Source of the DNA: Limonium bicolor
Taxonomy: Eukaryota > Streptophyta > Magnoliopsida > Caryophyllales > Plumbaginaceae
Assembly (NCBI GenBank): GCA_023374045.1
Contig: CM041780.1
Coordinates: 173,109,339-173,173,338, forward strand
DNA length: 64,000 bases
Reading direction: 5' to 3'
Part shown: in pieces, positions 5,586-49,135 of the stretch
How positions within the stretch are numbered: position 1 is the first letter of the stretch
Layout: the number at the start of each line of letters is the position of its first letter
Notes under the pieces: generated by a model
What the model saw: the letters and a program-made list of their open reading frames with translations, nothing else
Told to the model about the DNA's origin: nothing
Databases searched by the model: none
Translations under genes and position numbers: made by a program

Positions 5586-8500
5586 TGAAATACCCCGAAC
5601 TTAAATATAGGGATTAAAATTAACCTCATATGTATTTAAGGGCCTAATGGTACCCAATTAATACTAGTAAGGAAAAATAAATCCAAAAGAAATAAATAAA
5701 CGCTTAAAAAGCGGAAAACGCTAAATAAGCGTTAAGTAACCATAGGAGGTATGAGACCTCGGTTAGCGTGTTATATGGATTCTAAAGGTTTAATAAGACC
5801 TAAATAATATATGGGAACAACTCCCGAAGAAAATGGATCCAAATAAGGCATTAAAACGCTAATAGGGCTTTAACGCACATTTTTCGAGAAAACCCGAAAA
5901 CGTGATTTTAAGTGGTCAAACGAACCCGTAAAAATATATCATTAAATAAATATTATTAAGCATTTATGGAAGCTTAATAACCAATAAAATAAAGAAACGA
6001 GAAAATTCCGGAAAACGGACCCGGTTAGTGAACAGTATAAACCGGGTAAAATAACGAGCGTTTTCTGTAAAAGACAAAAAACGCTCCAGCTGGTATAACT
6101 GTAGGGGGGCCGGTTTTTTTTTATCTGTCAAACAACTCCCTCACACACACATGTAACTAGCTAACTAAATAAGAGAGCCAAAAAGCAAAGAAAACAATAA
6201 AGTAAAAGCTACTTTATCTACTTACTCTCTCACCTCACTTTTCTATTATCTCTCTCCCATTCCCTCCTTCCTCATCGTACTCCCTCTCTTTCTTCTCCCT
6301 TGTGGCTGCGATTTTGAGCTCCCCATTACAACCATGGCTTCTCCATCTTCTCTCTCATGCTCTACTTCCATTTGAGCTCCAATCACAAAAATAATTACAT
6401 ATTTGTAATCCCCTCATCCCCCCTCTATCATTCCCTCTTTTCAAAATTCGCAAAGGATGAGTTTCATCTCCATGGGTTTTCCCCATTTGAAGAGAAAAGC
6501 ACACCATTGTGGAGCTTGGAGTCTCCTCTTTCCAACAAGGTAAAAATCTACATGAAAGACCTCACTCTTCTCCATCTCTTGGGCATAACCAATTTTTCCC
6601 CTCTCTCTCACCTTGTTTTTCCTCTTGTTTTGGAGCTTTGTTTCAACCCTCCAATGGTGGTGAGAACACCTTCTTGAACCAAGGGCTAAAACCCCTCCTA
6701 AAAGCTTCAAAAGGTAAAGCCTAGAAATTTGTTTAAAACATCTCAATGAGTTAGTATAAATCTAAGGGTTAGTATATTAATTATACTTGTTTTGTATGCT
6801 TTGGGTTGATGGGAATGGAGTTTGGCAACTCCATTCCCCACAAAATCGAATTGTACAAGGAAGAGAAGAGGAGAAGTGGAAAAATGAAGGAATTATAAGC
6901 TCAAGGTAAGAGCTCTTTACTAATGTTAATTTTTATGCATTAGAGTAATGGAATGGGTAAACAAATAAAAGAACCCGAACTAATGTATTAGTATTGAAGT
7001 CTATGAAGTTTTGAGTATTAGGGAACTAGTAAGTAAATTGTAGGCCTTAGAGCCAAGTATATTGTGTATGAGTATTGGTATTGATGCATGATGGAGTATT
7101 GATGTATTGTGATGGTTTGTATAGCTTTGTGTGCTGGTAGGACCCTTGTATGGGTGTGGCTAGATTAGGAATGAATTTGATGTGAAAGTGCATATGTGGA
7201 GAAGTAAGGAAAGTAGGTGAACTATGGCGAAATTTTGGTAGGAATTATGTATCTAAGAATGACTTGGTGAATGGGAGAACCAAGGTGTATATTGGATTGG
7301 GTAGATATGTTTAGTAGTGATGAAGAGGTTGTTGTAGTATGAGAAACAAGAAGTGTAAAAATCTGTAGCAAAGTGTGTAAAAATGCCTTGGAGAAGTTAG
7401 GAAAAATTAGTGTGTAGGAATTGGTAAAATGAATGTTGGACTTGGGTATAGATGGTACAATTGCTTGGAAATGAATTGGCTTGGTAAGAGGAGGTATTTG
7501 GGATGCTAGGAGTGACATTGGTAGAGGAAGTATTGGATGTTAGAAGTTGGAACAAAAATCTGTGGCATTGAAGGATGCAAACTGTTGTAAGTGTGGAAGG
7601 GAAGTGATGAAATTGTGTAAGTTGATTGATGGATTTAGTAAAGAATTTGGTGGATGAACTAAGGCAATTTGAGGGGCCTAGGTAGTGTTTAGACATGGGG
7701 GATTACATGTAAGAAGATTGGAGAAACAATGGGTAAAGTATAGGACTGAAAACAGAAGTAAAAGTGCAAATACTGGGCCGGACCGAACTTGCGACCGGAC
7801 TTGCAAGTTCGGTCGAGCCCAGATTTACAAAGACGGGAATGCTTCTGGAATGGACCGAACTTGCGACCGGACTTGCAAGTTCGGTCGGACCAGAAAAATT
7901 CTCCCGTCAGTAACCTTCTGGAATGGACCGAACTTGCGACCGGACTTGCAAGTTCGGTCGGCCAGAAAAAATTTCCGTCCTGTAAGCTACTGGAATGGAC
8001 CGACCTTGCGACCGGACTTGCAAGGTCGGTCGGGCAAAAAATTTCCGTTAAGTAACTCACTGGAATGGACCGACCTTGGGACCGGACTTGCAAGTTCGGT
8101 CGGCCCTGGAATTTTCACCCGATGTAGCATACTGACTTGGACCGAACTTGCAAGATCGGTCGCAAGTTCGGTCGGGTCAAAACTTACAAAAAAAAAACTA
8201 TAAGACTATGGTTTATATGTATGTATGTATATGTATACCCACCTATACATACGTGCATATATATGTAAGTATACCATTGTTAAGTGATGAAAAGTAAGTA
8301 AATAAAATGTAAGTATAAGAATGTGAAGACTTAGTAAGTATGAGTTAGGAAGCGTAAGGGTAACCGAATTAAATTAATGATAGTTAGATTAATTATTCGG
8401 TTGTATGTATATCATAGGATTTGAATTGTGAATACCGGAGGAACGTTGGGATACAAGTACAACGGTGAAAGGTATGATTTCTTCATGCCCTGTATCCTAA

Positions 8501-12024: not shown

Positions 12025-15000
12025 TGAAATACCCCAAACATAAGTATGATAAGTAAACATCAATTTATGATGTAATAAGTCTAAAGCATGCCTTATAAAC
12101 ATTGGTAGACAATTTAAACTAAGAAAAACACAAGAAAACACCATAAAGTCAATTTAATCAAAAACTTGCTTTAGACTTGGTGTAACCTTGATTAGGACCT
12201 AAATGTCATTCCTAGACCTTATCAACATGATAATGAACATGTTAAAATAATTATCAAAGAAAACCAAGCTCAAAAACGAGTCAAAACACAAAATGTGCTT
12301 TAAGACTCCTTAAAGCACCTTTTTGAGAAAGTGTCTTAGAAATGAGTTTTGAGTGGCTAAATGACCACGTTTATGCCTTAATCAACATGTGTACTACTTA
12401 GTATCACATTAGGAAGTCTAAATAAATGGGAAACCAAAAATTACACAAATATGTGCACTAATTGTGAATAATGACCAAATAGTGCCTAATTTAGACTTTA
12501 GTCAACTTTGTTTAATTAAATGGTCAAGATAGACCATAAATATCTCCATTAAGAGAGGGGTACGGTTTTTAGAGGTAATGAGTCACCCTAAGACTTCAGC
12601 CAACTAAAGAAAGAAGAAGAAAATAAAGTAGAAGTACTATTTGCTTTATAAGATAAATACCTCACAAATACACTCTCTCACCTCATTCCTCTTCATTCCC
12701 TTCCTTCCCCACTGGTTTTCCTTCTTCTTCTCTGCTCCAAAACCGTGAGAGCACCAGGCATGGATCTCCACCTTCAATCTCTTGCCAAATCCAAGTCAAA
12801 GCTCCAAATAAAAAACTAAGAGCATATTTGTGCAAGTTAGACCAAGGCCTTCCTTTCTATCTTTTCAAATCCTTCAAAGCTCAAGTTTGATTCCATGGAG
12901 AAACTCCATTGAAGGGGGAAAATTCAGTTTGAAGAGCTCCTTTGCTTCTTCTTGTATTCAAGGTAAGAAAAAGCTTAAAAAATCATCTTTTCTATCCATT
13001 TTTGTCATTACCGAAAATTGCCTTCTCATGGAGTCTTGTTTTACTCCTTGAACTAGCTCATTCCAATCTTTAAAGGACAAGTGGAGATCCTCCTTGATTC
13101 ATTACCAAGTTCATCTTGAAACTCCAAGGTAAACATCCATTTTTAATGCCTTAAAACACATTTTAACCTAAGATTGCATTCTATGGGTTTAGGCATGTTT
13201 CTTAATACTCATTTAGATTTTTTGGATGTGCATTATAACATTGGCAAGAGAATTAAAGTCCTTGGCCGATTTTCCATCAAGAAAAACTGAAGGAGAAAAT
13301 TGAGAGAAAAGCTTGAAAACAAGGTAAATGTCTTACCCTAAGGCGATTTAATGCATTAAGGGATGGGATTGAGATAAATACTAAATGTAGCTTGGAGCTT
13401 ACATTAGGTAATGGGTTATATAACCTAGGAAAAAATATAAACAAGCTTATGAACTTGTGACTAAGGAGCCAATGGAAATGAGTTAGTAAGATAAGCTTAA
13501 GGTGGATTTTAAGAGCATTATAACTACTATGAGATTGATGGGTGTAATTGCAGGTTGAAAGCTATTATATGTGGGAAATTCAGTGTTTAAATTCATGTCA
13601 TTTAAGGGACTAAGAGCCATGTCATTTAAGAGCCTTAGTGCTATGCAATTTAAGGTTTATGCATTGTAATATGAATTAATGTATATGGGTGTAATTGGTG
13701 TTTTGAGAACATCCATTAAGGATTGGATTGTCTTAAGTTGTTAAGGGATAAAAAACTATGTGTTTGGGCATGGTAATATACTAGAGAATCTATTGCAAAA
13801 TTTGAGTAGAAACCAAGTGTTTTAAGTAGTAGTTGTGAGTGTTATGACCTAGGTTGTGCTAGGAAGCACTAAAGGAGGTTTTGGTAGAAATAACTAAACT
13901 AAAGTGTTCTTGAGGATTAGAAAGACCTAGTGTTTATTAGGTAGAGTTTGAGGTTGAATGGGTGGATTAAACACACCATGATTGAGATATAAGATATGTA
14001 TTGGATGGAGCAAAATTTTGTAGGAGAATGTAGTAAAAATGTTTTGAGAGGTTTAGGTGTGAACTAGTGAGTATAATCTTGATGGTAATGAGTGGACTTG
14101 GGTGATGGAGGTGAAAACTATAAGAGAATGTAGTAACTTGTCAAGGGAATGTTTAGGAATGGATAAGAGTGCATAACCATGTTAATGGTGAGAAAATTGA
14201 GTAAAGGAGATGGAAATGTTTAAAAGGAATTTAGAATGGTCAAACTGAAGGAGTATAGGTGTGTGTAAGGCTAAGTGATTGAGTAGTTAGATGAGGAACG
14301 GTGTTAAGGTGTTAAGAGTATGATTAATAATGCATATATATGTTCAAGTTAGGAATGATGAGAAGAAAGTGTAAAGGAAAGGAAATTATGCATGGAGATG
14401 CAATATGAATTTGAGAACTTTGAGAAGTTTGAGTAAAGGAAATGGAGAATGCATAATGATGCTTGAGGAGTAATTAAGATGGTTGTGAAGAAAAATGTTG
14501 GTTAGTTGAAGTCTTAGGCAAAATTACAAGTTGGAAGTGTAAGGAATTAAGTTCTAAGTGTTAAGAAGTTAGTAAGAATTTGAGTAAATGTTTAAGGAGT
14601 TTGTTGGATGATTTGAGAGGGTATTAGTGTGCCAAAAGGATGTTAAAACATGTGGGAAAACATGTGGAATGATTAGGTAAAGATTGGGGTGAATTTGGAG
14701 TTCAAAATAAGAAGAAAATCACTTTGAAAAATGGGTTCTGTTGTGGACCGCCCCTGTGGGGAGGTCCAGTTTAATTCTGCAGGGCGATTTGTTTCTGTTG
14801 TGGACCAACCCTGGGGACCTCCCCAAGGTAGGGGCGGTCCAGTCTATAAAAAAAATTTAAAAATTTAAGAATGATAAGGGCATTAGTAGCAAGCCATTAA
14901 GAGGGTAATGATGATTAGAAAGACAAGCATATAAGGACTTAAAAGATTAAGTTAAGTAAATGATTTAAGTGTTAAGGTTAAGTTTATAAGAACTTAAGTG

Positions 15001-16394
15001 GTATTAGATGGAGATCATTAATGGTTAAGTAAGTTAAATAACATGGAAGTAATTAACAACCTAAATTGGATGAATGTTTTAGGACTTGAGAATTGGGATT
15101 CGGAAGGAGATTAGACAACCGACATAAACGACAGTGTACGGTATGGTTTTCTTGTAGCCTGCTTGCTAACGAGGTGTCCCTCGGCTTGTGTGCTATTTGT
15201 TTATGTGTTCCGACTAAACAAGATAAAGCATGCAACCGGTTTATTGTATTTGTTATGTGTTTGGGATTACAACTAACACACTTGACTTGAGTTAACTTAC
15301 TAACTATGTTTAGTAAACAAATGGATGAGATAAAACACACTTGTTATGATTGGTTGGTTAATACCTGGTAAGGGTTTAACTAATAGGACTTTGACTTTGA
15401 GACTCCTACTAACCGTAACTTGGGGGGAGTGAGGAATCCGGAATGGTACCGGCACATGTGTATTGGGGAGGTCGGTATCTGTATCAGATACGGCTTCCAA
15501 ATTAGACTTGTCTTCGGACTGGTCGCCTAGAATCAACAAATCGACTCGACCACCTCGGACTACTGTTTGAGGCGGAAGGCACATTAAGTATGGCGTGGGG
15601 GGATCTAGCCTACATCCCCAACAATTTAAGAAATGTTGTTTATTGTCGGTAAGTGTACTGCTTTTGGCTAGGGTTAACCAAGCCCTACAAAAATAAACAA
15701 CGAATTAAGGGCTAACCAGTTCTAATAAGAGAACGGTTGGCATATATGAGGTAAGGGTGGAAATGAGAATAAGAGGAATTTGGATCTAAGGGGTTAAAAG
15801 CTAACTCACTTACTTAAGGAACGCTTCTAAGTCGTTCATTGTGTTTGAACTATTATTGTTCATATGTGGATTGATGTTTATTGTACTTCTTATTTATGTT
15901 GTGTATTTAATCAACCGCATGCTATCGACAAGTAGTCGTCGTTGCCCCGTTAGCTTGGGGGTTATAAGAGAATCGTACCAGCAAAGGTGTTGACCCCCTC
16001 GGGGGAAACTGTTTAAATTTTGCAGGTGAATGACAGAAGACGACCATCCTGAGAGTATGATCGGGTAGAATTACTTCGGGTTGTTTTCCTTTTGTTATAC
16101 GAGTTGTGCATGTACACTCGCTTAGTAAGTGGTATGAGATGTTGGTAAGATGTAAAAAGATATGAAATACTTGTACTGAGGGTATGTATTGGTTAAGGTT
16201 AATTATACATTAATGTTTGGTATATTCAGGTCCATCAAGCCCGTAGCTAGATCTTGGAGTATTTAGTATGCCTAGTTAGTCACGTGGGTGACTAACGGCG
16301 GTAACACCAACTGTTGTAAAAATTCCGTTATAATGTTGATATATGTAAATGGAGTTTTACGAGTTATTGTCAGTTTATGAGTTGGGGTGTTACA
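12025..16394 (+). repeat. 3' LTR of element 2 (4.37 kb)
   Basis: Starts TGAAATACCCC and ends GGGGTGTTACA. A TATA-like ctttataagataaatac near 12640 precedes a CT-rich region. AAGGTAA donors have GT at 12963, 13129 and 13324. A two-unit hairpin array lies at 14735-14852, a tgcag acceptor at about 16025, and the palindrome GTTAGTCAC/GTGACTAAC at 16275-16296. The body has diverged strongly from the element 1 LTR although the signals keep their order. CACTA coding sequence begins at the next base, so it is a 3' LTR. Confidence 0.8.
14735..14852 (+). repeat. two-unit hairpin repeat in LTR of element 2
   Basis: Two units of about 75 bp begin tctgttgtggacc and contain complementary ggaccgcccc / ggggcggtcc or ggggaggtcc arms. 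It occupies the position in the LTR where element 1 carries its 71-bp array. Confidence 0.6.
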
Positions 16395-17320: not shown

Positions 17321-18480
17321 GCGTGGCACGCCAGTCTCAAAGGATCTGGTGTCTCTGTCAGATACTATGGTCTTTGGTGTTCCGTGGTGTCTCATGATCT
17401 CCTTATCGAACAGTTCAGCAAGCTTCGTTACTTTCCCAGTGTCCTTCATCGGTATGAATCGGGCTACCTTGGTCAGGCGATCAACTACAACCCATATCAT
17501 GTTCAGACCTCCCCTGGTAGGTGGGAGTCCAACCACGAAATCCATGGAGATATCATGAAACTTCCACTCTGGAACTGGCATTGATTGAACCATGCCTCCA
17601 GGTCGCCTGTGCTCAAATTTTACCTTCTGGCAAGTTAGGCACCTCACTACAAACTCAGTAACGTCACTCTTCATCCCAGTCCACCAGAAGTAACGCTTCA
17701 TGTCTTTATACATTTTCGAAGCTCCCGGATGGATAGAAACAGAAGAACAGTGTGACTCTCGTAGAATGCGCTCCTTCAGCTCAGTGCTGCTGCGAGGAAT
17801 GCATAATCGGCCCTTCAATCTGATCAGATCATCATCATGTAACTCGAAGTCGTATTTCTGGCTCTCGAATGTACCCTCTATCAGCTTCTGCCTGATCTCC
17901 ATCATATATGAATCGCTCTGCTGAGCCTCTCGCACCTCGTCAATCAAGCTAGAACTAGCAACCATAGCATGAAGCGAGTGTGCTCGTCGACTCAGAGCAT
18001 CAGCTACAACATTGGCCTTCCCTTCTTTGTACTGGAGGTCAATGTCGTAGTCCTTCAGGAACTCTAACCATCTTCTCTGTCTCATATTCAACTCCTTCTG
18101 AGTGAATATGTACTTCAAGCTTTTATGGTCGGTGTAGACTGTCAAACTAACTCCGTATAAGTAATGGCGCCATATCTTCAAGGCGAAGACTACAGCTCCC
18201 AACTCAAGATCGTGTGTGGGGTAGTTTTCCTCATGTTTCTTCAGCTGGCGAGAGGCATAAGCAACTACCTTGCCATGCTGCATGAGTACACAACCCAATC
18301 CCCTGCCTGATGCGTCACAATATACCTCAAATCCCTCTGTACCGTCTGGGATAGTCAGAATAGGTGCAGAAGTCAATGAGTCCTTCAAGCTCTGAAATGA
18401 ACTCTCACAGTCATCTGTCCATACAAACGGTGCATCCTTCTTCATCAAACTGGTCATTGGCTTGATGACCTGAGAAAGTC
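17321..18480 (-). pseudogene. gypsy RNase H and truncated integrase
   Basis: One open frame from 18457 covers most of this. RNase [25 protein letters not shown] and [11 protein letters not shown] supply the catalytic D, E and D near residues 45-110, followed by [20 protein letters not shown]. Integrase: an HHCC-type zinc domain ([11 protein letters not shown], then CLTCQKVK), then the core with the first Asp in [10 protein letters not shown] and the second in IVSDRDTR. The glutamate that completes DDE is absent: gypsy identity stops at about 17325, and the last roughly 55 codons of the ORF are antisense CACTA sequence with no integrase resemblance. Family role: RNase H removes template RNA and integrase inserts the cDNA. 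Inactive because truncated. Confidence 0.85.
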
Positions 18481-19260
18481 CTTAACAAACTCCTGTAATA
18501 ACCTGCCAAGCCGAGGAAACTCCTGATGTCGGTAACTGACTTCGGCCTTGGCCAGGTGCACGGCTCATCAATCTTTGCTGGATCCACTGAGATCCCAGCA
18601 TCTGAGATGACATGACCAGGAAAGAGACCTGGTCAAGCCAAAACTCACTTGGAGAACTTAGCATAAAGCTGGTTCTCCCTTAGTATCTCTAAAACTTGTC
18701 TCAAGTGACTTTCATGTTCACCTCTCGACCCTGAATATATGAGTATATCATCGATGAAGACCACAACTGACTTGTCCAACTGTTCCCTGAACAAACGGTT
18801 CATCAAATCCATAAATATCGCCGGTGCGTTCGACAAACCAAACGGCATCACTGTAAACTCGTAGTGGCCATATCTCGTCCGGAATGCCGTTTCTCAATAT
18901 CTTCTCTCTAACAGGAATCTGATGATACCCTGACTGAGATCTCTTGGAGAACAGATGCCCCTTTCAATTGATCAACAAATCATCTATGCGTGGTAGCGGT
19001 ATTGTTCTTTATGTAACAGTATTCAACTCCCTGTAGTCGATGCAGAGGCGGAGACTGCCATCCTTCTTCTTCACGAAGAGTACTGGCGCTCCCCATGGTG
19101 ATACACTAGGCCGCACAAACCCTTTGTCGAGCAGGTCTCTCAGCTGTTCTTTCAATTCATTCATCTCAGCTGGAGCCATGCGGTAAGGCGCCTTGGCTAT
19201 CGGTCCGGTTCCTGGTAGCAGCTCGATGGTGAACTCTACCTCCCGTGGTGGTGGCATGCC
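18480..19260 (-). pseudogene. gypsy reverse transcriptase, frameshifted
   Basis: Pieces in order along the minus strand: [20 protein letters not shown] and [20 protein letters not shown] (19257-19010), then a frameshifted stretch reading PLPRIDDL, SGYHQIPVRE and RTRYGHYEF across frames, then [20 protein letters not shown] and the catalytic FIDDILIYS (18851-18645), then HVISDAGISVDP-like and SFLGLAGYY-like segments. These are the conserved RT blocks of Ty3/gypsy elements. At least three small indels and a stop (near 19009) interrupt the frame, so it cannot make RT now. Confidence 0.85.
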
Positions 19261-19859
19261 GGGTAGTTCCCTTGGAAAGAGGTCGGAAACTCCGACACCA
19301 CTGGTACTTTGGGGTCGAACTCTGAATCTCTCTCTATATCCTGAACATAGCAGAGGTACACTTCTTTCTTCTTTCTCAGCTCTCGATACATGGCCATAGC
19401 GGTGATGATCTTGGTTGAAGGCTCTCTAGGTCTCTGGCGGTATGATATAGTAACCCCAGACGGACTCCTGAGTAGCAGTCGGTGCTCGGCGCAGAGGATA
19501 CGACCCTTGTGCCGCTCCAACCAGTTCATCCCGAATATAACATCAAACCCTAAATCTCTGAACTCAATCAAGGTGATAGGAAAGTCTTCTCCTCTAATTC
19601 GGATAGTGGTGCTCGGTAGTAGCGAGTGCATCGAACCTTCTCCTTAGACAGCGTAACCGTGAAGTCTGGCAGCTCGTCAGCGTCTAGCCCCAACCTCCTT
19701 GCAAATGATGATGAGACGAAGGTATGCGAGGCCCCTGAGTCGAATAGTACTGATGCATCAACGCCATTGATCGAAAGGTACCCGTGAGGATAGTGCCGCT
19801 CTCATCGGCCTGTGCCTCTGTGAGTAAGCTTAACGCACCTTCCGAACCGAATCCACAAC
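19260..19859 (-). pseudogene. gypsy aspartic protease region
   Basis: The aspartic protease motif FDSGASHTF is encoded near 19705-19765, preceded by YLSINGVDAS in a shifted frame. It is followed by LPSTTIRIRGEDFPITLIEF and FDVIFGMNWLERH, the usual sequence between protease and RT in this group. The upstream stretch ALSLLTEAQADESGTILTG (about 19780-19845) matches the linker that normally leads into the protease. One base appears lost near 19780. The segment starts just after a probable 3' splice site at 19860, in frame with the AlkB exon upstream. Confidence 0.8.
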
Positions 19860-19988
19860 CTAAGTATTTCATAAGGATCATAAGTACTGATGGTATAATA
19901 CGAGTTGAAAACGAGTAATCAGCACTGATATTATTTAAACCATCCTTTTACAATGTGAGTTTTCTATTACAATACTTCAGTGTATTAC
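19860..19988 (-). other. candidate intron between AlkB and protease
   Basis: 129 AT-rich bases beginning GTAATAC and ending ACTTAG on the minus strand, between GC-richer coding segments. Removing it joins the AlkB frame (phase 1) to the protease linker in the same frame. No transcript evidence is available here. Confidence 0.55.
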
Positions 19989-20687
19989 ATGGGTAGTACT
20001 TCCTAAAGGTTAAGTTCAGGCGTCCAGGTCTCATGTGTGTGGCATTGCTTACTGTCGATGGTGTTGTATTCAACTTAATCCTCTTGATACCGTGATACAG
20101 CATTCTCGATTTTCCTCCCATGATTAGAATATCTTCTGACTTAAGTACCACTTTTTGGGCAAGGTCTACGCGCTTCTGCTCGCCATATAGGAATTCGGCC
20201 TCGTCTCCAATGGACCAAGACACTACGGGTATCCCTCGGTTAAGAGACTCCGTTGTCTCGTCCTTATCTTGGTGTAGTCCAAGTCGTCCCTCCTTTTAGT
20301 AGAAGTTGATAATGCAGAGGCCTGCTTCAAGGTTCGGGATTGGATCCGCCACAAGTGGTTGTGCAATCCCTACGGCTTGTGTATTAACTGTATGATACTC
20401 CTCAGGTATCTCTGGTGGTGTTGTTCCATCCACTACTCTCGTCTTTTGGTAAGTGTTGGTGTAAGGGTTCCAGTTCTTACCCAAGCACATCATTCTTAGC
20501 TTCATTCTCGATCCTCCAGGGTATTCCGGTGTATAGAAACCTCCCGGTCCCACTCCTAGCTGGCTACATCTTCTGATGATGGCGATTTGTGCATTTGGTG
20601 ACAGGTATCCTTTTAATAAGATCATACCTGGCCGGATGACCTGACACTACTCCCTTGGGAATTCGTGAATCTTTAGGTCGGTCTCTT
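19989..20687 (-). pseudogene. AlkB-like Fe(II)/2-oxoglutarate dioxygenase exon inside gypsy gag-pol
   Basis: A 699-base segment (233 codons, one frame) resembling plant AlkB homologues of the ALKBH1 group. Features in order: RPGMILLKGYLS, a GPGGFYTPEY segment, MMCLGKNWNP, CIINFY, the Fe(II)-binding HxD in LGLHQDKDE (about 20255-20285), VVSWSIGDEAEFLYG, GGKSRMLYHG with the distal His (about 20093), and RPGRLNLTFRKY with the two 2-oxoglutarate-binding arginines (20002-20025). AlkB enzymes oxidatively remove alkyl groups from nucleic acids. All expected metal and cosubstrate residues are visible, but two in-frame stops (TAG near 20650, TAA near 20294) interrupt it. It lies exactly between the CCHC knuckles and the protease, where gypsy elements normally have only a linker, and phase-1 introns flank it. 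The fold assignment is firm; whether it ever worked in the element is inference. Confidence 0.85.
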
Positions 20688-20865
20688 CTAAGCTAGGTGT
20701 TGAAGGTATTGGATAACAAATGTTGAAGTTTCCTAAGGTGGTAATAATTTATCTTACATGAGTTCTAATTAACTAACTAGAAACTCACTCAAAACATATA
20801 GTCACTGATTCATGCATGAAATGCGATAAGCATACAGTTTTCTCCCTAATAGGTTGTAGTGGTAC
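20688..20865 (-). other. candidate intron between gag zinc knuckles and AlkB
   Basis: 178 AT-rich bases, GTACCA to CTTAG on the minus strand. It is phase 1 on both sides: the zinc-knuckle frame ends with one base of a codon and the AlkB frame begins with two. A neighbouring AG at 20693 would be out of frame. Confidence 0.5.
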
Positions 20866-22245
20866 CTGGTCTCGATGAGGGTTCAGCCTCGTCTTCCCGG
20901 TCCACCATATGTAGTGCAGGAGGCCCTGATCACTGGACAACCCAGGGTCCCCTGTTAGTAGCTGGTTGTGTCACCTTTGGACCGTCGGTTCCAGGATTCG
21001 GAGCGGCCACGCCCTTGCCCTTGGCCTTCCACCCAGGTCTATAGGCTTTACTCTCGGGGTTTCTGAAACATTCGAAAGCTCGGTGTCCGAAAACACCACA
21101 GAAATTGCATTCCACCTTATTTCCTTCACAATCAACTCCAGGGTGGTCTTGGTTGCACCTGCGACAATTGTAGCGGCGCTTATATCCCCCGCCGGTGCCC
21201 TTGCCGATCTCGGTACCTGTTTGCTTACAACATTAGTAATTGAATTTCAAGGTTGATAACTGACTGCTAACTCAATTTAAGGAGTTACTTGTTACCCTTT
21301 GGTGCAGGCGAGCGTAGAGGCTTCGCTACTATGCCATAGGTTTGCTTTTGTGGCTCTTCAGTAGCCTTAGGTTGGTTACCTTTTCAGCCTTTCTGGGGTG
21401 GTGGCTGGTACTTACCTTTCTTCTGTCCCCCCTACCCCTGATTGTCAGAGCTATTACCAGCAACTTTTCTCTTCAGTGCCTGATCTTCGTCCCTCAGCTG
21501 GACGGTGATTTCAACTTTAGCAGCGGCATGATAGCACTCCTGCTCTTAAAAATATCAGTCTCACATTCATTCTCATATAACGTTCATTCACTTCAACTAA
21601 TCTCAACTTTACATGCAAGGTAGTATAGCTTGCGGGCCCATGCCATAGCGTAGTCGGTGGCTCAGCCCGCCATAGAAGCGGTCGACCAGAATCTGGTCTG
21701 AATATCCCAATCCTGGTAGAAGACGGATAGAGCGGTGAATGAGAGTAGTAGTCGTCCACCGTCATCTTGTCAGTCTGCTTCAGCGCGTCCAACTCTAAAC
21801 GCTTCTTAGTCTGGACATGGGTGGGGTAGTACTTGGCTCTCAGCAAGGCCGCGTACTGCTCCCAGCCGAAGTTGGGGTTGGCCACATGATCGGCCCTAAC
21901 TAGCTTCCACCAATCGCCCCCGCATCCTTCAGGTAGAACGCAGCAAGTCTTACCTTGGCTCCCAGGTATATCAAGGGTCTCGAAGGCGGTCTCCAGCTCT
22001 GAGATGTACGCCTCAAGTTTGGTGGGGTCTGTCTCCCCTCTAAACGGTGGGGGTCGAAGGTCAGCGAGACTCTTCACCCAGTTTGGCTCCCGGGGCTGTG
22101 GTGGTGGAGCAGGCGGTCCCGCACCGGGCTGATAGCCCATGTGCCCCAGGGCGGCAGCAACGATCTCAGCTATCGTCTGTCCACCCGGGATCTCAGCAGC
22201 CTCAACTCCTTCTTCGCCACGGCCTCGTCCTCTTCTTCCTGACAT
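20866..22245 (-). pseudogene. gypsy gag with CCHC zinc knuckles and candidate introns
   Basis: ATG at 22245 (MSGRRGRGRGEE), then a proline-rich stretch and the Retrotrans_gag core (PPPFRGETDPTKLEAYIS, DWWKLV, WEQYAALLRAKYYP, LKQTDKMTVDDYY). Downstream come ECYHAAAKVEITVQLRDED and two CCHC knuckles: one degenerate near 21160 (NCRRCNQDHPGVDC) and one canonical near 21110-21070 (CNFCGVFGHRAFEC). Two AT-rich GT-AG segments, 21540-21612 (phase 0) and 21217-21295 (phase 1), split it and restore the frame if removed. Gag packages the genomic RNA. Stops near 21433, 21385 and 20929, and a probable frameshift after DDYYS near 21755, break it. The start is about 220 bases after the primer site, a normal leader length. 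Confidence 0.75.
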
Positions 22246-22438
22246 CTGAATAAGTATAAATGCAAAGTAAGCTCGTGATTACAAAGGCTTTGGTCTAAGC
22301 GTTTATAACATCCTTATAGACAGTAAGATAATCCACTCTTATTAGTGGTTATCTGACTCAGCTCACACTACTATCTCACACCCAAACCCATGACTATTAC
22401 TCTAACTCGGTACCTACTCTAGTTCGGTAACTCTAGTC

Positions 22439-22471
22439 ATCAGAGTGTAACTACACTCTGATACCACTTTT
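22439..22471 (-). promoter_or_regulatory. primer binding site in a perfect hairpin (gypsy)
   Basis: On the minus strand, TGGTATCAGAG (22466-22456), matching the 3' end of initiator tRNA-Met, follows the LTR end after five bases. Most of it forms one arm of a perfect 10-bp stem with a 4-base loop (22439-22462; arms atcagagtgt and acactctgat). The LARD at 45003-45026 has the same stem with two compensated pairs. Confidence 0.85.
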
Positions 22472-25400
22472 TGTAACACCGCAACTGCTAAACCTGAACC
22501 ATCACATAACAAACCTGCAACAATATTACAACACAGCGGAAAAATACTACAAGTTGGTGTTACCGCCGTTAGTCACCCACGTGACTAACTAGGCTTATTC
22601 CAGTCTCAAGCTACGGTCTGACGGACCCGAGTGTACCGAACGTAAGTGCGTACAAAGTCTTAAAACAAAATACAATACCGAGTTCAAAGTATCTCTCCTA
22701 TTATTACAACTTACTACCATTGTTTATGAAACGAGTGTACAGGCACACTTCGTAATGCAAATTAAACCCTTAGTGCTCTACCCACTCCTACTCTTAGGTT
22801 GGGTCCTCGTCTGGCACCTACCTGCAAAGTTTAAATCACAGGCCCCAAGGGGCTCATACAAAATAATAATAAGAAGTACGATAACAAACAACACACCCAT
22901 GTGAAACATTCACAGCTCAAATAAATCGAACGTCGTAATGGACGCTCATTAATGAGTAAGTTAGATCCCTAACTCCTGAGGCCTGAGAATTGTTTAGTTC
23001 TCGTGTTTGACCATATCTTATAAGTGTCAACCATTCTCCTATTAGAATTGGTTGTTCTCTAACTGAGCTGTTTATTTTTGTCGGGTCAAAGTAACCCTAG
23101 CCAATGAGTTGTTAGCTCCATTGGTTTAATAAACACTAATTCTTAAGTTATGAGGGGTGTAGGCTTGACCCTCCCGCGCCTCCTGAATTTGTCTCCCACC
23201 TCGAACTGTTCACTCGAGCTGGTCGGGTCAGTTTGTCGACCCTAGGCGACAAGTCGTAGACGAGCCATATGCGGAAGACAGATCTGATACAGATGCCGAC
23301 CTCCTATCCTAAACATGCATGACCGGAGTCAGTCCCGGATTCCTCTCCTCACAAGTTCCAGTTAGTTGAAGTCTCATTGACAATTGTTTAGTTAAACCTC
23401 TCTCGGTATTAACCTACTAACAACTTGGAGTATTTATAACCTTGTACAATTGTTACTAAACATAGTTAATGAACAAGCTCTGAATCAAGTCATGTTAGTG
23501 TGAAATGGACACACAATAACAATACAGTAAATCGGCTTAATCCTGTTTGGTCGTATCACAATAACACATAGCACACTAACCGAGGTAGACCCCGTTAGCA
23601 AACAAGCTACAAGAATCCCATACCTTAGCCTACCGACGTTCGTCCACTCCCAGATGACGTCTCGACTATTCTGGTCACCTTACTCCGCTCCTATAGTTCA
23701 TTAGGACGGCGTGGTTAAATAACTTAATTTTCGTATTTTCACTATTCACCATATTTTACTATTCACGTATACGTCTCATATTTGACTATTCTTAAATACG
23801 TAGTTACTATTCATGTATACGTATTTACTATTCATGTATACGTATTTACTATTCATGTATACGTATTTACTATTCATGTATACGTATTTACTATTCATGT
23901 ATACGTATTTACTATTCATGTATATGTATACTATTCACGTATACGAGTACTATTCATGTACACTAAAAATTTTCGTATACGTCCGTATGATACTCCGTAT
24001 CATACGTATTTATTTCTTTTTCTAATATAACTTGTACTTTCATTAGAAATACCTTAAGTATTGATTTCTCCTATACTTGTTAAATTACGGGTATACCCCT
24101 CGTATACCTTAAGTTATATACGGGTCTCGTTTAACCCCGTCTTAACTTTGTTTCTTTTACAACTTGTTTCTAAATTCTTTATTTAATTTCCTTAACCTTC
24201 TAAACACATAAAAATGTGTTATTTACATTACTTACCCTTAGTTTTCTCTTAATCTCTATTTTATTCATAATAAGTTCTAAACTTGTTATTTTTATTTCTA
24301 ATTTCTTCCAAAGTCTTATTTAACTAATTTCTTTTATACTTTTGGTCAATTACCAAAATATACCCAAGTTTGACCAGTCTTTTATGGTCAAACCCCCTAA
24401 CTTTCCATAATTTCAATATTACCCCTAAAGTTAATTTAACTTAACTTTTTATTCCTTTATCCTTTTAATATCTAATCTTTTGCTACAAATTTTATTCTAG
24501 CTCCTCTAAACATTTTACAAACTGTCATTGACCAAGTTGACCATGTTTGACGAGGGAAATTACCATTTTACCCTTGTTGTGGTCTTTTCTTTTATCCTAA
24601 CTCATTTATTAACCAATTTAACTCTAATTAATTTCTAATTTTCGTAACTAATTTTCCTACAGATTTTTGAACATCAAAAATCTTTTTAAACATCTCTAAA
24701 TCACCAGATTTAATTATCTAAAGTTGTAGTATACATATACTATCTTTTATTAACTTTAAATATACCAAAAACCTTATAAATTCTAGTAATACTTATAAAC
24801 TCTTTATAAATTGTAAACTTAATTCTACAATTATTTTCTCATCACCAAAACTTCATAAAATTCATAATACTTCATATATATTTTCAGCAATTATAATATA
24901 TAGCTAAAAATTCTCAAATTTTACATATTACTCTTAAATATACTAATTCCTTTAATTTAACTTAGTTATATAATTTTCCTAACTCACATAAGTTCTCTTA
25001 ATTTTCGGCCACCCCATAAATTATAGTATATGAACTTTCTTATATATTATGATAGCTTATATTAAAGTTCATATCATAAGGGTTATAAATCTAATTTTAG
25101 ATTTACAAAATATTAACATTTTAGGTGCCAAAAATTAAATCTAACACCTAATAAATTCGGCAATAATAAACAAGGTATACAATATGTTAGATCATATATA
25201 GATCAATATTTAGAACCTTGAAATAGGTAGTTGTAGGATTTACCTTGTATATTAAACTTTTAGCTTAATATCTAAGCTTGAATTCCTTAGAAATTTTTCC
25301 AGCAATTTGCTAAAGGAATTGTCCCCAAAATTATACAATAAGATAAAGAATAAGATGGGTTAGTATCCCATGCCAATCGGATGTAACAAAAACCAAAGAA

Positions 25401-27544: not shown

Positions 27545-29404
27545 GAGAGATTAAAACTGTAAAATGTTAAAGGTTAATGTATGGTCCGGGACTTAGTCCT
27601 TGGATAAAGTCCTGGACCACACAAGAAAAACTACCTAAAATCCATGTTTAGGTTGGTATGGGACCTAAGTCTTGTTAGAAGTCTCGATCCAGCACTAAAA
27701 ACCTGCTGAAAATGTGCTAGAACATTGGTCCGGGACTTAGTTAAGGATAAAGTCCCAGACCACACAAATTTTTATGCCGAAGGTTTGCTAGACAACCTGG
27801 TCCGGGACTTAAGATCCGGACCATGTCCCGGACCAGCCCTAAATTTGCACCGAAGGTTAGAAAATGAAGGGAAATGTGGGGGCTTGTTTGGTAATACTAT
27901 TATATGATTGTTAGGAGTTGTTTAGTGACATGTAATGGTCATTAGAAGTGTGAACAAGTGTAAGATATAATGAGAAATGATTAACTTACGAGGTTAAGTT
28001 TGAACTACAATGACTTAGTGGTTATTAGTCGAAAATCATTAGTGATTAAACAAACTAGGTTAATTAAAAGGAATTAACCACCCAATTCAGTGAATGTTAT
28101 ACGGTTTGAGTAAGTGGACTCCGGAGGAGAGTAGACAACCGACGACCAATGGTGAATGGTATGGTTTTCTTGTAGCTTGCTTGCTAACGAGGTGTTCCTC
28201 AGTTTGTGTGTTGTATGTTTATGTGTTAAGACTAAACAAGATAAATCATGGAACCGGTTACCGTATTTATTTGCGAGTTTGTAATATACTACCACGACTT
28301 ACCTTTGAGTTTACTTTCTCACAACGCTTAGTAAACAATTGTATGAGATTATGAATCACTCCCTATTATTGGTTGGTTAATACCCGAAAGAGGTTCAACT
28401 AACAAACATGTCTTGAGACTTCTACTAACTGGACTTGGGGTGAGGAATCTGGGACTGTCCAGTCACATGTGTTTGAAGGAAGAGGTCGGTATCTGTATCA
28501 GATCTGACTTCCATTGAGACTCGTCTTTGGGCTTGTCACCTAAAGTCGACAAATAGACTTGACCACCTCGAATTTCTGTTTGAGGTGGGAGGCAGATTAA
28601 GATGGTGCAGCGGGATCACCTAAATCCCAATTTAAGAAATATTGTTTGTTTAAACCAATGGAATTGATAGCTCATTGGCTAGGGTTACTTTTGACCCGAC
28701 AAAAATAAACAATGGACTAAGGTGTCAACTCAATCTAATTAAAGAACGGTTGACATATTGAGATAAGAGAGGACATGAGAAACTAAATGTTCTCAAACTT
28801 AAGGGGTTAAAAGCTAACTCACTTACTTAATGAACGTCCATTACGTCGTTCGATCTGTTTGAGCTATGATTATTTCATATGATTGTGTTGTGTGTTATCG
28901 TACTTCTTATTATTGTTTGTATGATAAATCAATTGCATGTATACGACAAAATAGTCGTGTGTAGCCCTGTTAGCTTATGGGTCGCACATTAATCATACCA
29001 GCGAAGGTGCTGAGCCCCTCGGGGCATCCATATTACTTTTCAGGTAATCGACAGAAGAAGACCCACCTTGAGAGTAGGAGCGGGTAGACTTGCTATGGGT
29101 TTTACTTTTGTATACGAGCTGTGTATGTACACTCGTTTGTCGATATTAGAGGTTGTTGTAAACTATGTTAGCATGTGAGATACTTGATACTCGTTATCTT
29201 TTGGTTAAGACTTTGTAAATACTTACGTTCGATATATTCGGGTCTATCAGGCCGTACGTAGCTAGAAACTGGGGATTTCGTATGCCTAGTTAGTCATGTG
29301 GGTGACTAACGGTAACACCGACTTGTAGAATATTTTCGCTGTGTTATTATATATATGCTTGGAGGCTTATGAGATAATCATGGTTTTAAGAGTTGGGTGT
29401 TATA
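27545..29404 (+). repeat. 5'-truncated long LTR of the same superfamily
   Basis: Matches the 3' half of the element 2 LTR: the segment at 28080-28200 resembles 15055-15170 (gtatggttttcttgtagc shared). The later signals follow in order: a gagcccctcggggc stem near 29007, a CAG acceptor at about 29043, and the palindrome at 29289-29310. It ends gggtgttata at 29404, a decayed TACA end. The left border falls directly on the CACTA Transposase_24 fragment. No primer site or 5' half is present. Confidence 0.7.
27575..27845 (+). repeat. hairpin repeat units in truncated LTR
   Basis: Three to four degenerate units of about 70-80 bp built around ggtccgggacttag and complementary aagtcc(t/c)ggacc arms. 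The placement in the LTR is equivalent to the arrays at 7775 and 14735, but the sequence differs. Confidence 0.6.
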
Positions 29405-35728: not shown

Positions 35729-38700
35729 TGTAACACCCCAACTACAAATAACACACTTAACAATACTTTGCAGCGGAAATCACAACTCACAACATAACTC
35801 AGCTCTTTGGTGTTACACGCCGTTAGCCACCCACGTGGCTAACAAGGCTAACATATATACATCGTACCGGTCTGATGGACTAAACTCCCGAGCAACTACA
35901 CATTAATCCCGTTCCATGTCCAACATTCAATATACACTTACATTACAACTGTACCGAGTATTTACTAACTCATGCCGACACAATTTCGGTCTTACTACAC
36001 CTACAATACATCCACATTTCACATGACTACCACATACAAACAACTACCCCGTCCTACTCTCGAACAGCTTCCAATTCCTTGTACCTGAAACAAGAAAAAG
36101 AAGAAAAGGGTGGCCCCCAAGGGGCTCAGCACCTTTGCTGGTATGGTAATCCCGCAGCCCGCATGCTACCGGACCACGCACAACTAATTGTCGTTTTAGC
36201 ATGCGGTTGATTTATTTTAAACATACGCAAAATACACACATACTCCATGCTTAAAAGCACACTCCATTAAGGTACACAAACACCTGATTAGCACACACAA
36301 CATAACAACACACTTCACTTAATAACATACACAAACTTGATTTCACTCTTCTTAGAGGACATACTCTTTTTTAGGATGTGCCGGGTAGTATAGGCCCGAG
36401 CACAACATACATACATTTTCTTTACTGAGTGGCGGCCTCATATAGGACCGATCACAACATACATAATTTCCCCCTAGCTCCAATAATGATGAGTTAGGTA
36501 AGCCTTGGTTAAGCTTGTGGGTGGTTGTAATTCAAGGAGGAAAAACAACCGTATATAACAAAGAGGGAGTCGAAGCGAACTTAGGCATCGACACCTACCA
36601 ACATTAAACATGATTTCCCCTACCCGATTGGAAGTTGGGTAGGTAAGCTTTGGCTAAGCTAATGGGAGGTCGAAATCCAATGAAGGAAATCAACCCTTAA
36701 CAAACAGGATGGGAGTTAATTCACATATATATAATATATATATATATATATACTCCCAAACAATACGTGCAACCGGAACGACCGGATTCCTCACCATACA
36801 TAACATATACTTATTAGTTAAAGGTTCCTTTATGGAACTTATCACATACATACATCACATAGTTTTACTAACTCTGTTAATCACATAAGGGAATCGCATC
36901 CCATTTCAACAACACGGATAACAGTATCCAATAACCACAATGTACTAACAAGTCACACACATCACACTTAATCACAACATACACTAACACACGGATAGCC
37001 GTAGTTAGAACGTTCCCGTGGGTTGGGACGTTTATTCCGAATACCGATCTCTTATGTGAACCTAAAGTCGGTTAACTATTATTTAACACATAATTAGGGT
37101 TAAGCGGTATCAGAATTAATTACGCCACAATAACGAATTACTATAAACTCATTTCATGCTTTATCTTGCAAGGTGGCAAACACACAGAAAAACACATTGG
37201 CATACAAGCCGGTGTAATCCGGTTGGACACAGGTTGCAAGAAAACCATACCTGTCACCGAAGGTCCACTCCAACGTCCCATCGCATGTTTCTCGAAACTC
37301 TTTGAACAACTGGTAACATTATAACTACTTCTATTAACATCGGGGTAGTATAGCTATTTAAGACTAGTGCGCCCATGGTTAACCCCGTTCAGTAGTTTTA
37401 TAACTTCACATTCTTAACTTGTTTACTTCCACATTTCTATTACAACTCTTCACCACTCAATGGTCATTATTACTCACTTAGCATATCCTTAACAACCTTA
37501 TAACATCTTTGCATACCAATCCTCATCATTAGACAACTTAATTTTTTTTTTTTTATAAGTGGCCGACCGACCTTACCGACCGAACTTACCCAAGGTCGGT
37601 CCATTCCAGTAACGTCCGAGTTCAAGATTTTTCACTCCGACCGACCTTGCCAAGTCCGGTCCCAAGGTCGGTCCATTCCAGACGACTTCCCGTTTGAAAA
37701 TTTTACCCCGACCGACCTTGCAAGTCCGGTCCTAAGGTCGGTCCGTTCCAGAAAGATTTCCGCGCACAAATTTGAGTCTGACCGACCTTGCAAGTCCGGT
37801 CCCAAGGTCAGTCGATTCCAGAAAGATTTCCGACGGGTTAAACTGGGCTCGATCGACCTTGTAAGTCCGGTCCTAAGGTCGGTCGGCTCCAGACCCTTGT
37901 TTCTAAATGCCCATTCAACTCCAAACTTCTTCCCATTGTTGCTCCAAGGTTCCTACATGTATTTGGGCATTTTCCATCACCATTACAACCTCTTAAACTC
38001 ACCTAACTCATCACCTACGCTTGTTACTCAATTCTTAACCAAATTCACCCAAATTTCTCACTCTCCTCTTACAAGAACTAATGCTTAGTTCTATCAAGTG
38101 TTATGCTACAGATTTTTCTCACCACTCTCTTAACTCCATTATTCATTCACCATTACAAGGCCAAAACTCCTTTCTACTCAACATTAAACATCCCAACTGA
38201 ACACCTAAACTCTCTCATCCATAAAGCCATTCTCAACACTCATTTTCCCTTAAAATTTTGCCATAACCTCCCCATAAACTTTGCATCTCCAATTCATCAA
38301 AACACATCCTCCTCATTCCTAATCTAGCCACACCCTTTTCAAGGGTCCTATCAGCACATAACCAATCCTCAAATTCATCAAACAACAACAACATAATCAC
38401 CATAAACTCCATAACCACAATATCAATCTCCATAACAAACTAAACACATTACAACACAGATTTTAATCCACAATTTGGGTTCATTAACTTGTTTACCCAT
38501 CCCAAACACTTAAACAATTTAGAACAAGGTTTAAGGTGAATTCCTTACCTTAATTTCACAAGTCTCTTTAATTCTCCTCTTGCTCCTCATCTCTTCAAAA
38601 TCGGTCAAGAGTGTATGGAGTTTCTAAACTCCATCCCAACATCCAAGAACACAAAACATACTCAATCAATTATCTAAACCCTTAGAAAACTCAATTAAAT

Positions 38701-39838
38701 CAAAGGGGCTTAGAACACAAAGCTAGGGTTTACCTTTTGAAGCTTTTAAGAGGGATTCTCACCCTTGAATCAAGAAGGGGATTACTCCACCATTGAAGGA
38801 TTAATTTGGAGCTCAAGAACAAGGAGAAAAACAAGGTATCAATAATGGTGAAAAATCGATTACACCAAGAGATGAAGAGGAAGTGACTTTTTCTTGGAAA
38901 TTTTTACCTTAGAAGAAAGAGGAGACTCCAAGCTTCACATTGGTGCCATTTTCTCTTCAAATGGGGAAAACCCATGGAGGTCAACTTCATCCTTTTGGAA
39001 TTTCGAAAAGAGAGGATGATAGAGGAAGATGAGAGGAAGAAGAATATGTGATTTATTTTTGATTTGGAGCTCAAAGGGAGCTTGGGCATGAGGTTGAACA
39101 TGGAGTAGCCATGGGGGCTTCAAAAACGTTCAACCAGCAGAGAGGGAGAAGGGAAACCGGTGGAGGAAGAAAGAGAGAAAGAGAGGAGAAGAGGGAAAAA
39201 AAAATAAGGAAGAGAGAGAGTGGGGGTATAAGTGGTGTTTCTATTTTTTGACTTTATTTATTAGTTAACTCTCTTATGTGAGTGAGCTGTTTACATTAAT
39301 AAAACCGGCCCACCACTGAAGACACGCTGGAGCGTTTTTCATCCTTTAACAGAAAACGCTCGTTTATTTACCCGGTTTAGCACTATTCACTAACCGGGAC
39401 CGTTTTCCAGAAATTTTCTCATTCCTTTAATTTTAATGGTTATTAAACTCCCATTAATGTTTAATTATTGTTACATAATCAACTATTATTTTTACGGGGT
39501 CATTTAACTGTTTAAAGTCACGTTTTCGGATTTTCTCGAAAAACGCGCTTTAAGACTCCATTAGCGTTTTATCGCATTGTTTGGATCCATTTTCTTCCGG
39601 AATTTTTCCCACACGTTCTTAGTGTGTAATTAATATATAAAATATATTTATAGCCCTAACGAAGGTTATGTACCCCCTAGAATAATTAAATATGCGTTTT
39701 CACGTTTTGTGACTTTTACGCACTTTCTTTTTTTTTCTTTTTGGTTTTTATTTCTTCACCAACGATCTTAAGGACTTAATTAGCCCTAGAGAATTATAAT
39801 TACAAAATTAATTAACACATTAAGGTTTGGGTATTTCA
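35729..39838 (-). repeat. 3' LTR of element 3
   Basis: TGTAACACCCC ... GGTATTTCA on the + strand. Terminal palindrome 35822-35843, cccc/gggg stem near 36115, TTTCAG acceptor near 36084, hairpin array 37558-37895, donors near 38545, 38735 and 38910 (minus strand). A long TA run lies at about 36728-36752. Confidence 0.9.
37558..37895 (-). repeat. hairpin tandem repeat in 3' LTR of element 3
   Basis: Five units of about 71 bp containing gaccgaccttgcaagtccgg then cccaaggtcggtc and a spacer. Same family as 7775-8176, with gacct/aggtc stems replacing gaact/agttc. Confidence 0.9.
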
Positions 39839-39874
39839 ATCTACCCCCTTAAAAGAACTTCGTCCTCGAAGTTC
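39839..39874 (-). promoter_or_regulatory. terminal polypurine tract and hairpin (element 3)
   Basis: On the minus strand: hairpin gaacttcg/cgaagttc (39874-39855), then a purine run ending gggggtagat that abuts the LTR start TGAAATACC at 39838. Confidence 0.8.
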
Positions 39875-45002: not shown

Positions 45003-45035
45003 ATCAGAGCGATACTTCGCTCTGATACCACTTTT
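45003..45035 (-). promoter_or_regulatory. primer binding site in a perfect hairpin (element 3)
   Basis: Minus strand TGGTATCAGAGC (45030-45019), a 12-base match to the initiator tRNA-Met 3' end, separated from the LTR end by five bases. A perfect 10-bp stem (arms atcagagcga / tcgctctgat, 45003-45026) with a 4-base loop covers nine of its bases. Confidence 0.9.
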
Positions 45036-48000: not shown

Positions 48001-49132
48001 AGAACACAAGCTAGGGTTTACCTTTTTGAAGCTTTTAAGAGGGATTCTCACCCTTGAATCAAGAAGGGGATTACTCCACCATTGAAGGATTAATTTGGAG
48101 CTCAAGAACAAGGAGAAAAACAAGGTATCAATAATGGTGAAAAATCGATTACACCAAGAGATGAAGAGGAAGTGACTTTTTCTTGGAAATTTTTACCTTA
48201 GAAGAAAGAGGAGACTCCAAGCTTCACATTGGTGCCATTTTCTCTTCAAATGGGGAAAACCCATGGAGGTCAACTTCATCCTTTTGGAATTTCGAAAAGA
48301 GAGGATGATAGAGGAAGATGAGAGGAAGAAGAATATGTGATTTATTTTTGATTTGGAGCTCAAAGGGAGCTTGGGCATGAGGTTGAACATGGTAGTAGCC
48401 ATGGAGGCTTCAAAAACGTTCAACCAGCAGAGAGGGAGAAGGGAAACCGGTGGAGGAAGAAAGAGAGGAAGAGAGAGAGAGGAAAAAGAAAATAAGGAAG
48501 GAGAGAGAGTGTGGGGGTATAAGTGGTGTTTCTATTTTTTGACTTTATTTATTAGTTAACTAGTCTTATGTGAGTGAGCTGTTTACATTAATAAAACCGG
48601 CCCACCACTGAAGACACGCTGGAGCGTTTTTCGTCCTTTAACAGAAAACACTCGTTTATTTACCCGGTTTAGCACTATTCACTAACCGGGACCGTTTTCC
48701 GGAAATTTTCTCATTCCTTTAATTTTATGGTTATTAAACTCCTATTAATGTTTAATTATTGTTACATAATCAACTATTATTTTTACGGGGTCATTTAACT
48801 ATTTAAAGTCACGTTTTTCGGATTTTCTCGAAAAACGCGCTTTAAGACTCCATTAGCGTTTTATCGCATTGTTTGGATCCGTTTTCTTCCGGAATTTTTC
48901 CCACACGTTCTTAGTGTGTAATTAATATATAAAAATATATTTTTAGCCCTAACGAAGGTTATGTACCCCCTAGAATAATTAAATATGCGTTTTCACGTTT
49001 TGTGACTTTTACGCACTTTCTTTTTTTTTCTTTTTGGTTTTTATTTCTTCACCAACGATCTTAAGGACTTAATTAGCCCTAGAGAATTATAATTACAAAA
49101 TTAATTAACACATTAAGGTTTGGGGTATTTCA
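45036..49132 (-). repeat. 5' LTR of element 3
   Basis: Partner of 35729-39838. Terminal palindrome near 45129-45150 (one end base changed), acceptor near 45385, hairpin array 46868-47195 preceded by a poly(T) run, and AAGGTAA-type donors near 47836, 48020 and 48196 (minus strand). Confidence 0.9.
46868..47195 (-). repeat. hairpin tandem repeat in 5' LTR of element 3
   Basis: Five units matching 37558-37895 almost base for base; the first unit has lost about 10 bp relative to the other LTR. Confidence 0.9.
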
Positions 49133-49135
49133 ATC

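Follow-up and report, generated by a model that had tools for sequence, protein, structure and literature searches.

A probable ALKBH1-type AlkB domain between gag and pol in a chromovirus-like Ty3/gypsy lineage of Limonium bicolor

An AlkB domain in a plant gypsy retrotransposon is known from Phalaenopsis orchids, where the element Gypsy_Pa_2799 carries a paALKBH5-like second open reading frame, ORF2 (PMC9289625, 2022). That paper reports a screen of 121 angiosperm genomes in which, among gypsy consensus sequences, only those of two Phalaenopsis species had an AlkB domain, and demethylation of N6-methyladenosine (m6A) RNA by the orchid AlkB in vitro. The orchid element has been cited as a case of gene transduction (PMC11963269). 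Here, we describe a Ty3/gypsy element whose AlkB dioxygenase is flanked by the zinc knuckle of gag and by the protease, on the minus strand of a 64,000-nucleotide stretch of the Limonium bicolor genome (assembly GCA_023374045.1, contig CM041780.1, positions 173,109,339 to 173,173,338 of the forward strand); the window denotes this whole stretch. A preliminary description of the same DNA, made from its letters, had proposed that the element captured the AlkB, and had held that no gypsy element with AlkB was described, a statement that the Phalaenopsis case corrects. In the open-licence literature of PubMed Central (titles and the starts of abstracts; subscription papers and preprints lie outside it), no chromovirus or ALKBH1-type capture was found beyond the orchid paper and the works citing it.

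A chromovirus-like Ty3/gypsy lineage of L. bicolor almost certainly captured AlkB. The explanation proposed here is that this lineage would have taken up, between gag and pol, the catalytic exon of an ALKBH1-type gene of its host, and that the captured AlkB would have been kept as a working gene over many rounds of transposition. Taken as a whole, capture with kept function is probable, judged from sequence comparisons.

AlkB between gag and pol across the genome

Both halves of the window AlkB pass the cut-off for Pfam PF13532 (E 8.6e-11 and 4e-26), and the identity of the domain is therefore beyond chance. Together with the gag and pol matches, these hits bear out the place of AlkB between gag knuckle and protease on one strand; the protease, reverse transcriptase (RT), RNase H and the zinc-binding domain of the integrase all lie downstream of AlkB on that strand in the Pfam matches. 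The motifs for metal and 2-oxoglutarate (2OG) that the preliminary description had picked out, namely H-x-D, the distal H (YHG) and RxxxxxR (RLNLTFR), are all present, as is N-x-Y (INFY). The single open frame of 699 bases read there does not hold, as two in-frame stops interrupt it, at 20649-20647 and 20298-20296.

Among the matches listed, the named relatives of the window AlkB are plant proteins with 47-54% identity, many of ALKBH1 type; the names are ALKBH1-type or unspecific, and the sources often say DNA N(6)-methyladenine demethylase. Of the solved structures, 5xeg scores best (E 3.2e-73); its record calls it a putative 2OG-Fe oxygenase, and we take it to be rice ALKBH1. The 21 matches in the PDB include AlkB, ALKBH1 and 5xeg but none named ALKBH5. 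The assignment to ALKBH1 is to be read with trees that left out ALKBH9/10 and the orchid ORF2 sequence. Four unnamed database proteins, P0001-P0004, are closer to the window AlkB (63-70% identity), and the predicted structure of P0001 has a mean predicted local distance difference test score (pLDDT) of 91.4. Since a search of the protein database with gag gave no match, and thus no surrounding DNA, these four are placed by the tree alone; they may come from L. bicolor or from other species. Among viral contigs, P0001 and the pol piece gave no related sequence, and an AlkB alignment as query gave three AlkB loci, at 33-37%; bacterial and archaeal genome contigs gave none.

The genome searched totals 2.92 Gb and has 2686 contigs, of which eight are large. 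With the C-terminal half of AlkB as query, at least 150 scored places with 79-100% identity were found across all eight large contigs, among the matches listed. A first sample of 20 AlkB places (7.3 kb each) was picked partly for long open frames, and a second of 40 places (about 2.5 kb each) was taken half from near the top and half from near the foot of the list. Both AlkB halves and a downstream protease on the same strand are present in all 20 copies of the first sample. The order gag, protease, RT, RNase H, integrase is that of Ty3/gypsy elements, and domains missing from some of these copies (CCHC from 2, the N-terminal part of gag from 5, RT from 3, RNase H from 4, integrase from 5) are absent through truncation or decay. 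CCHC, both AlkB halves and protease stand in order on one strand in 52 of the 60 fetched copies; the other eight lack CCHC (six), protease (one), or CCHC and the N-terminal half (one). In the reverse search, from CCHC, 78 of 150 places among the matches listed have a listed AlkB place on their own strand, 0.6-1.3 kb further downstream. Three high-ranked places among the 72 without a listed partner were fetched, and all three hold AlkB, broken or frameshifted; the other 69 may include copies without AlkB.

In one fetched copy the integrase ends in a chromodomain-like tail (PF00385, E 2.3e-4, 21.4 bits against a cut-off of 25.1). The element presumably resembles the Tekay/Del chromoviruses, judged by its motifs.

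A second family, here called C, was found with a Ranunculus ALKBH1-type protein as query, which matched at 81 scored places (54-61% identity); the frames there span 229-313 residues, and most have no internal stop. All three places fetched hold gag, CCHC, AlkB, protease and RT in order, and a family C copy matches PF13532 with 160 bits. The search for further elements of this order, which the preliminary description had proposed, thus came out in favour of capture by the element. Against the window copy, family C is 40-44% identical in gag, 82-86% in the first RT domain (RT1), 54-59% in the N-terminal AlkB half (AlkB_N) and 69-72% in the C-terminal half (AlkB_C). In a tree of 45 rows, the element AlkBs form one clade (100/100) that includes P0001-P0004; its neighbours are the ALKBH1 genes sampled from angiosperms, which are themselves grouped with weak support (87/38). 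Since two families with diverged gag share AlkB and their AlkBs form one clade, the capture looks older than the family split and apparently happened once. One further protein, P0221 of Cinnamomum micranthum, joins Retrotrans_gag to a host-like ALKBH1 and groups with host genes in both trees; it may be a fusion, an artefact of the gene model or another gag-AlkB association.

The preliminary description had read selection from the catalytic motifs retained in the window copy; that argument does not carry, and selection is instead indicated by comparison of copies. Over 61 rows, the ratio of nonsynonymous to synonymous substitution rates (dN/dS) is 0.296 within subfamily A (528 pairs), 0.198 within B (378 pairs) and 0.112 between them (924 pairs), the subfamilies being set by an identity threshold and the decayed rows L017, L046 and L057 being kept in B. 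Domain by domain, between 12 copies of A and 7 of B with L017 left out, it is 0.05 for AlkB_C and 0.14 for AlkB_N, inside the range of 0.05-0.18 of the element's own domains (RT1 0.08, RT2 0.09, integrase 0.05, RNase H 0.10, protease 0.14-0.15, gag 0.13, CCHC 0.18); these values are rough, with dS above 1 (saturated) in several domains and with non-independent pairs. Private changes were also counted in columns classed by their conservation in hosts. Where P0001 and P0003 agree, the window copy departs from them at 1 of 52 columns that are conserved, at 5 of 32 that are intermediate and at 23 of 59 that are variable. The corresponding counts for P0001 are 0 of 51, 5 of 32 and 10 of 46; those for P0003 (6 of 57, 3 of 30 and 6 of 42) look like decay. 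Purifying selection on AlkB, with a constraint like that on the element's own proteins, is very strongly suggested.

Splice-like sites and rival explanations

The stretches around AlkB carry conserved splice-like sites, two donors (D1, D2) and three acceptors (A1-A3). Of 21 rows inspected by eye, all 18 that could be aligned keep GT at D1; of 61 rows, 49 of the 51 that could be aligned keep AG at A1. For the same 61 rows, GT at D2 is kept in 55 of 56 that could be aligned (phase 1 in 43 of 45 copies scored), AG at A2 in 55 of 58 (phase 1 in 37 of 51) and AG at A3 in 60 of 60 (phase 1 in 43 of 46). As a control, the share of dinucleotides that 95% or more of the rows keep was taken for the three non-coding stretches, and is 4%, 19% and 38%; against this background the sites of the gag intron, D2 and A2 stand out. 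The end points 20865 and 19860 that had been given for the AlkB region before these sites were found coincide with D2 and A3. Family C shows the same splice-like layout in different letters. Of its copies, L072 and L074 have a gag intron of about 75 bases and L073 lacks it, exactly from GT to AG, which would be the usual mark of a reverse-transcribed spliced RNA.

On these sites, AlkB would lie within a gag-pol intron and serve as an alternative last exon. RNA left unspliced at D2 would give a Gag that ends at the stop just behind the donor; joining of D2 to A2 would give Gag-AlkB, and joining to A3 would skip AlkB and give Gag-Pol, so that alternative splicing would set the ratio of the three products. 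One may further speculate that the Gag part carries the enzyme to element RNA, where it would strip the element's RNA or DNA of N6-methyl groups or similar marks, and that host marking would then hinder the element less. NbALKBH1L is reported to demethylate m6A (PMC12736721), and ONSEN RNA to be freed from stress granules by AtALKBH9B (PMC12786077).

Several observations weigh against capture and splicing as set out here, beside the partial choice of the first sample for open frames and the saturated dS mentioned above. The phase at A2 differs in 14 of the 51 copies scored, which is ascribed to frameshifts of the copies, not checked singly, and A3 hardly stands out, with 38% of the surrounding dinucleotides equally conserved. 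Neither a D2-A3 nor a D2-A2 junction was found in 77 fetched loci and the window, a set picked almost entirely by AlkB and biased against such junctions. The constraint on AlkB_N (0.14) is looser than that on RT (0.08-0.09). The stem of the element AlkB clade is long (0.49, and 1.15 in an earlier tree) and no host ALKBH1 gene came to light in this genome, the 3 places fetched of the 81 from the Ranunculus query being elements; the exact host source is uncertain for both these reasons.

Taken alone, the window copy with its damaged AlkB would be compatible with a piece of a host gene, or a pseudogene, that landed by chance in one dead element. Such a single insertion is ruled out, since other copies and a second family show this order too, and the flanking duplications that had been named beforehand as a mark of late insertion do not appear, as no direct or inverted repeat across the AlkB insert exceeds 8 bases; we attach practically no probability to chance landing. 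It is also very improbable that AlkB is a passenger of no use to the lineage. Many copies are indeed damaged, the whole exon being open in 25 of the 60 and the domain part in 30, in a set partly chosen for open frames; yet the dN/dS of AlkB between subfamilies lies in the range of the gag and pol domains, changes avoid conserved columns, and all four catalytic motif checks are passed by 56 of the 60 copies.

Production of AlkB by read-through of a stop codon, by re-initiation or from a start of its own, in place of splicing, would agree with a stop codon that is TAG in 54 of 61 rows (subfamilies A and B), with the single frame that gag, AlkB and pol share in one fetched copy, and with an in-frame ATG at or upstream of the domain start region in 17 of 20 copies (first ATGs at 2587-2791; in the other three the first AlkB ATG lies at most 170 residues from the end, or there is none). 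The stop of family C is TGA, however, in L072 pol lies in a different frame, and the exon phases at the GT and AG sites of gag, AlkB and pol match in both families; this route appears unlikely, and splicing in about the proposed form is moderately favoured. The enzyme might also serve the element while acting mainly on host RNA, tRNA or genomic DNA (e.g. N6-methyladenine, 6mA), or by repairing alkylated cDNA. The ALKBH1-type relatives, many of them named DNA N(6)-methyladenine demethylase by their sources, speak for such targets, and RNA and cellular targets are both discussed for the orchid element in PMC9289625; a Gag-AlkB fusion, itself a predicted product, would instead favour the element's own RNA. 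Such alternative targets are conceivable, at clearly less than even odds. The element's own RNA or cDNA as substrate, which the preliminary description had supposed to be protected or demethylated, is likewise put forward tentatively, somewhat short of an even chance. The fullest version, in which alternatively spliced Gag-AlkB in particles would erase adenine methylation of the element's own RNA or cDNA, in a lineage independent of that of Phalaenopsis and with a different AlkB type, is more doubtful still.

The window copy and its surroundings

The features of the window copy are collected in Table 1. The copy is dead: AlkB has the two stops given above and has lost its own stop codon, gag and pol carry frameshifts and stops, and pol, spread over several frames of one strand, is cut off within the integrase at about 17340. 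No 3' LTR (long terminal repeat) of this copy was found, and a chromodomain is absent from it, as it ends within the integrase. Counted by eye, the AlkB stretch has two stops, and gag and pol have roughly four disabling lesions per kb; the two do not clearly differ. The zinc knuckle, with its CCHC within 21232-20930, stays below the cut-off for PF00098 (E 0.0075). Motifs of the quality of the primer binding site (PBS), with at most two mismatches, number 4 in the window against a mean of 3.83 expected by chance; the one in the table abuts the LTR-like stretch.

Table 1. Features of the AlkB-bearing element in the window.
Feature	Positions	Strand	Remarks
LTR-like stretch, taken as 5' LTR	22473..23627	-	directly 5' of PBS; aligns with 14975-16392 and 27991-29402; outer border provisional
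PBS-like motif, tRNA-Met type, one mismatch	22455..22466	-	abuts LTR-like stretch
gag with CCHC knuckle; frameshifts and stops	20866..22266	-	PF03732 E 5e-6; PF00098 weak
Intron-like stretch in gag, D1 to A1, 79 bases	21217..21295	-	sites CCAAAGG^GTAA, CAG^GTAC
Splice-donor-like D2, phase 1	20864..20865	-	GT conserved; in-frame gag stop at 20848-20846
Splice-acceptor-like A2, 5' of AlkB exon	20733..20734	-	AG conserved
AlkB exon, ALKBH1-type 2OG-Fe(II) dioxygenase	19993..20732	-	PF13532
Splice-acceptor-like A3, 5' of pol exon	19860..19861	-	AG conserved
pol: protease, RT, RNase H, integrase start	17340..19859	-	PF08284, PF00078, PF17917/PF17919, PF17921

The two LTR-like stretches at 14975-16392 and 27991-29402 belong to the same LTR family as the AlkB element, are about 73% alike and lie in the orientation opposite to it, and LTR dating of the window copy was dropped because of this orientation. 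Elsewhere in the window, direct repeats of 4.1 kb at 35729-39842 and 45036-49136 are 97.3% identical, and a PBS motif of the tRNA-Met type occupies 45019-45030 of the minus strand; the repeats are probably the LTRs of a young, large minus-strand element. Remains of a FAR1/MULE-type transposase lie at 50051-51799 (MULE PF10551, E 2e-19; SWIM PF04434; FAR1 PF03101 below the cut-off), and a weak match to the Plant Mobile Domain at 56757-57476 (PF10536, E 0.0034, below the cut-off). A family of repeats of about 75 bases forms tandem arrays at 7771-8197, 37545-37961, 46870-47190 and 63546-63890.

Comparison with known systems

Plant ALKBH1-type host genes (ALKBH1A-D in source names) have the domain and the motifs in common with the window copy, at the identities given above. 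The host ALKBH1 proteins checked have an N-terminal stretch FDIC..VKL..SLL..NRE.R, whereas the element AlkB keeps only an FDIC-like start, and the element AlkBs form a clade of their own apart from the host proteins. Plant RNA viruses, likened here by description, are also RNA-based parasites with an AlkB domain of their own, according to PMC9289625.

The closest described system, the Phalaenopsis element, is likewise a plant Ty3/gypsy element with many copies and with the AlkB metal and 2OG residues kept. According to its description (PMC9289625), its AlkB is ALKBH5-like and sits at the C-terminal end of a separate ORF2, whereas that of the Limonium element is of ALKBH1 type and lies between gag and protease. 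The orchid element has a Tat/Ogre-type RT, a dual RNase H, a tRNA-Arg PBS and a length of 25 kb; the Limonium element, known here from sequence alone, has a tRNA-Met-type PBS and, in one fetched copy, the chromodomain-like tail. Neither a tRNA-Arg PBS nor an AlkB reading frame separate from gag-pol was found in the Limonium element, and no ALKBH5 is among the matches listed for the window AlkB, in an analysis whose tree was drawn without the orchid sequence. The Limonium case looks like a second, independent AlkB capture, in a chromovirus-like lineage.

Ogre elements have an intron between coding regions (PMC9289625). An intron-like stretch between the gag and pol parts, with partial splicing as a means of setting product ratios, is what they would have in common with the Limonium element. 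Unlike it they are of Tat type and, according to PMC9289625, as a rule without an AlkB reading frame. The position of AlkB inside an intron-like stretch suggests how an element with gag-pol may gain a gene without breaking gag-pol. One capture could be a curiosity, but a second AlkB type in another gypsy lineage, selected in more than one family, would suggest that plant retrotransposons repeatedly meet an obstacle in base methylation of their RNA or DNA.
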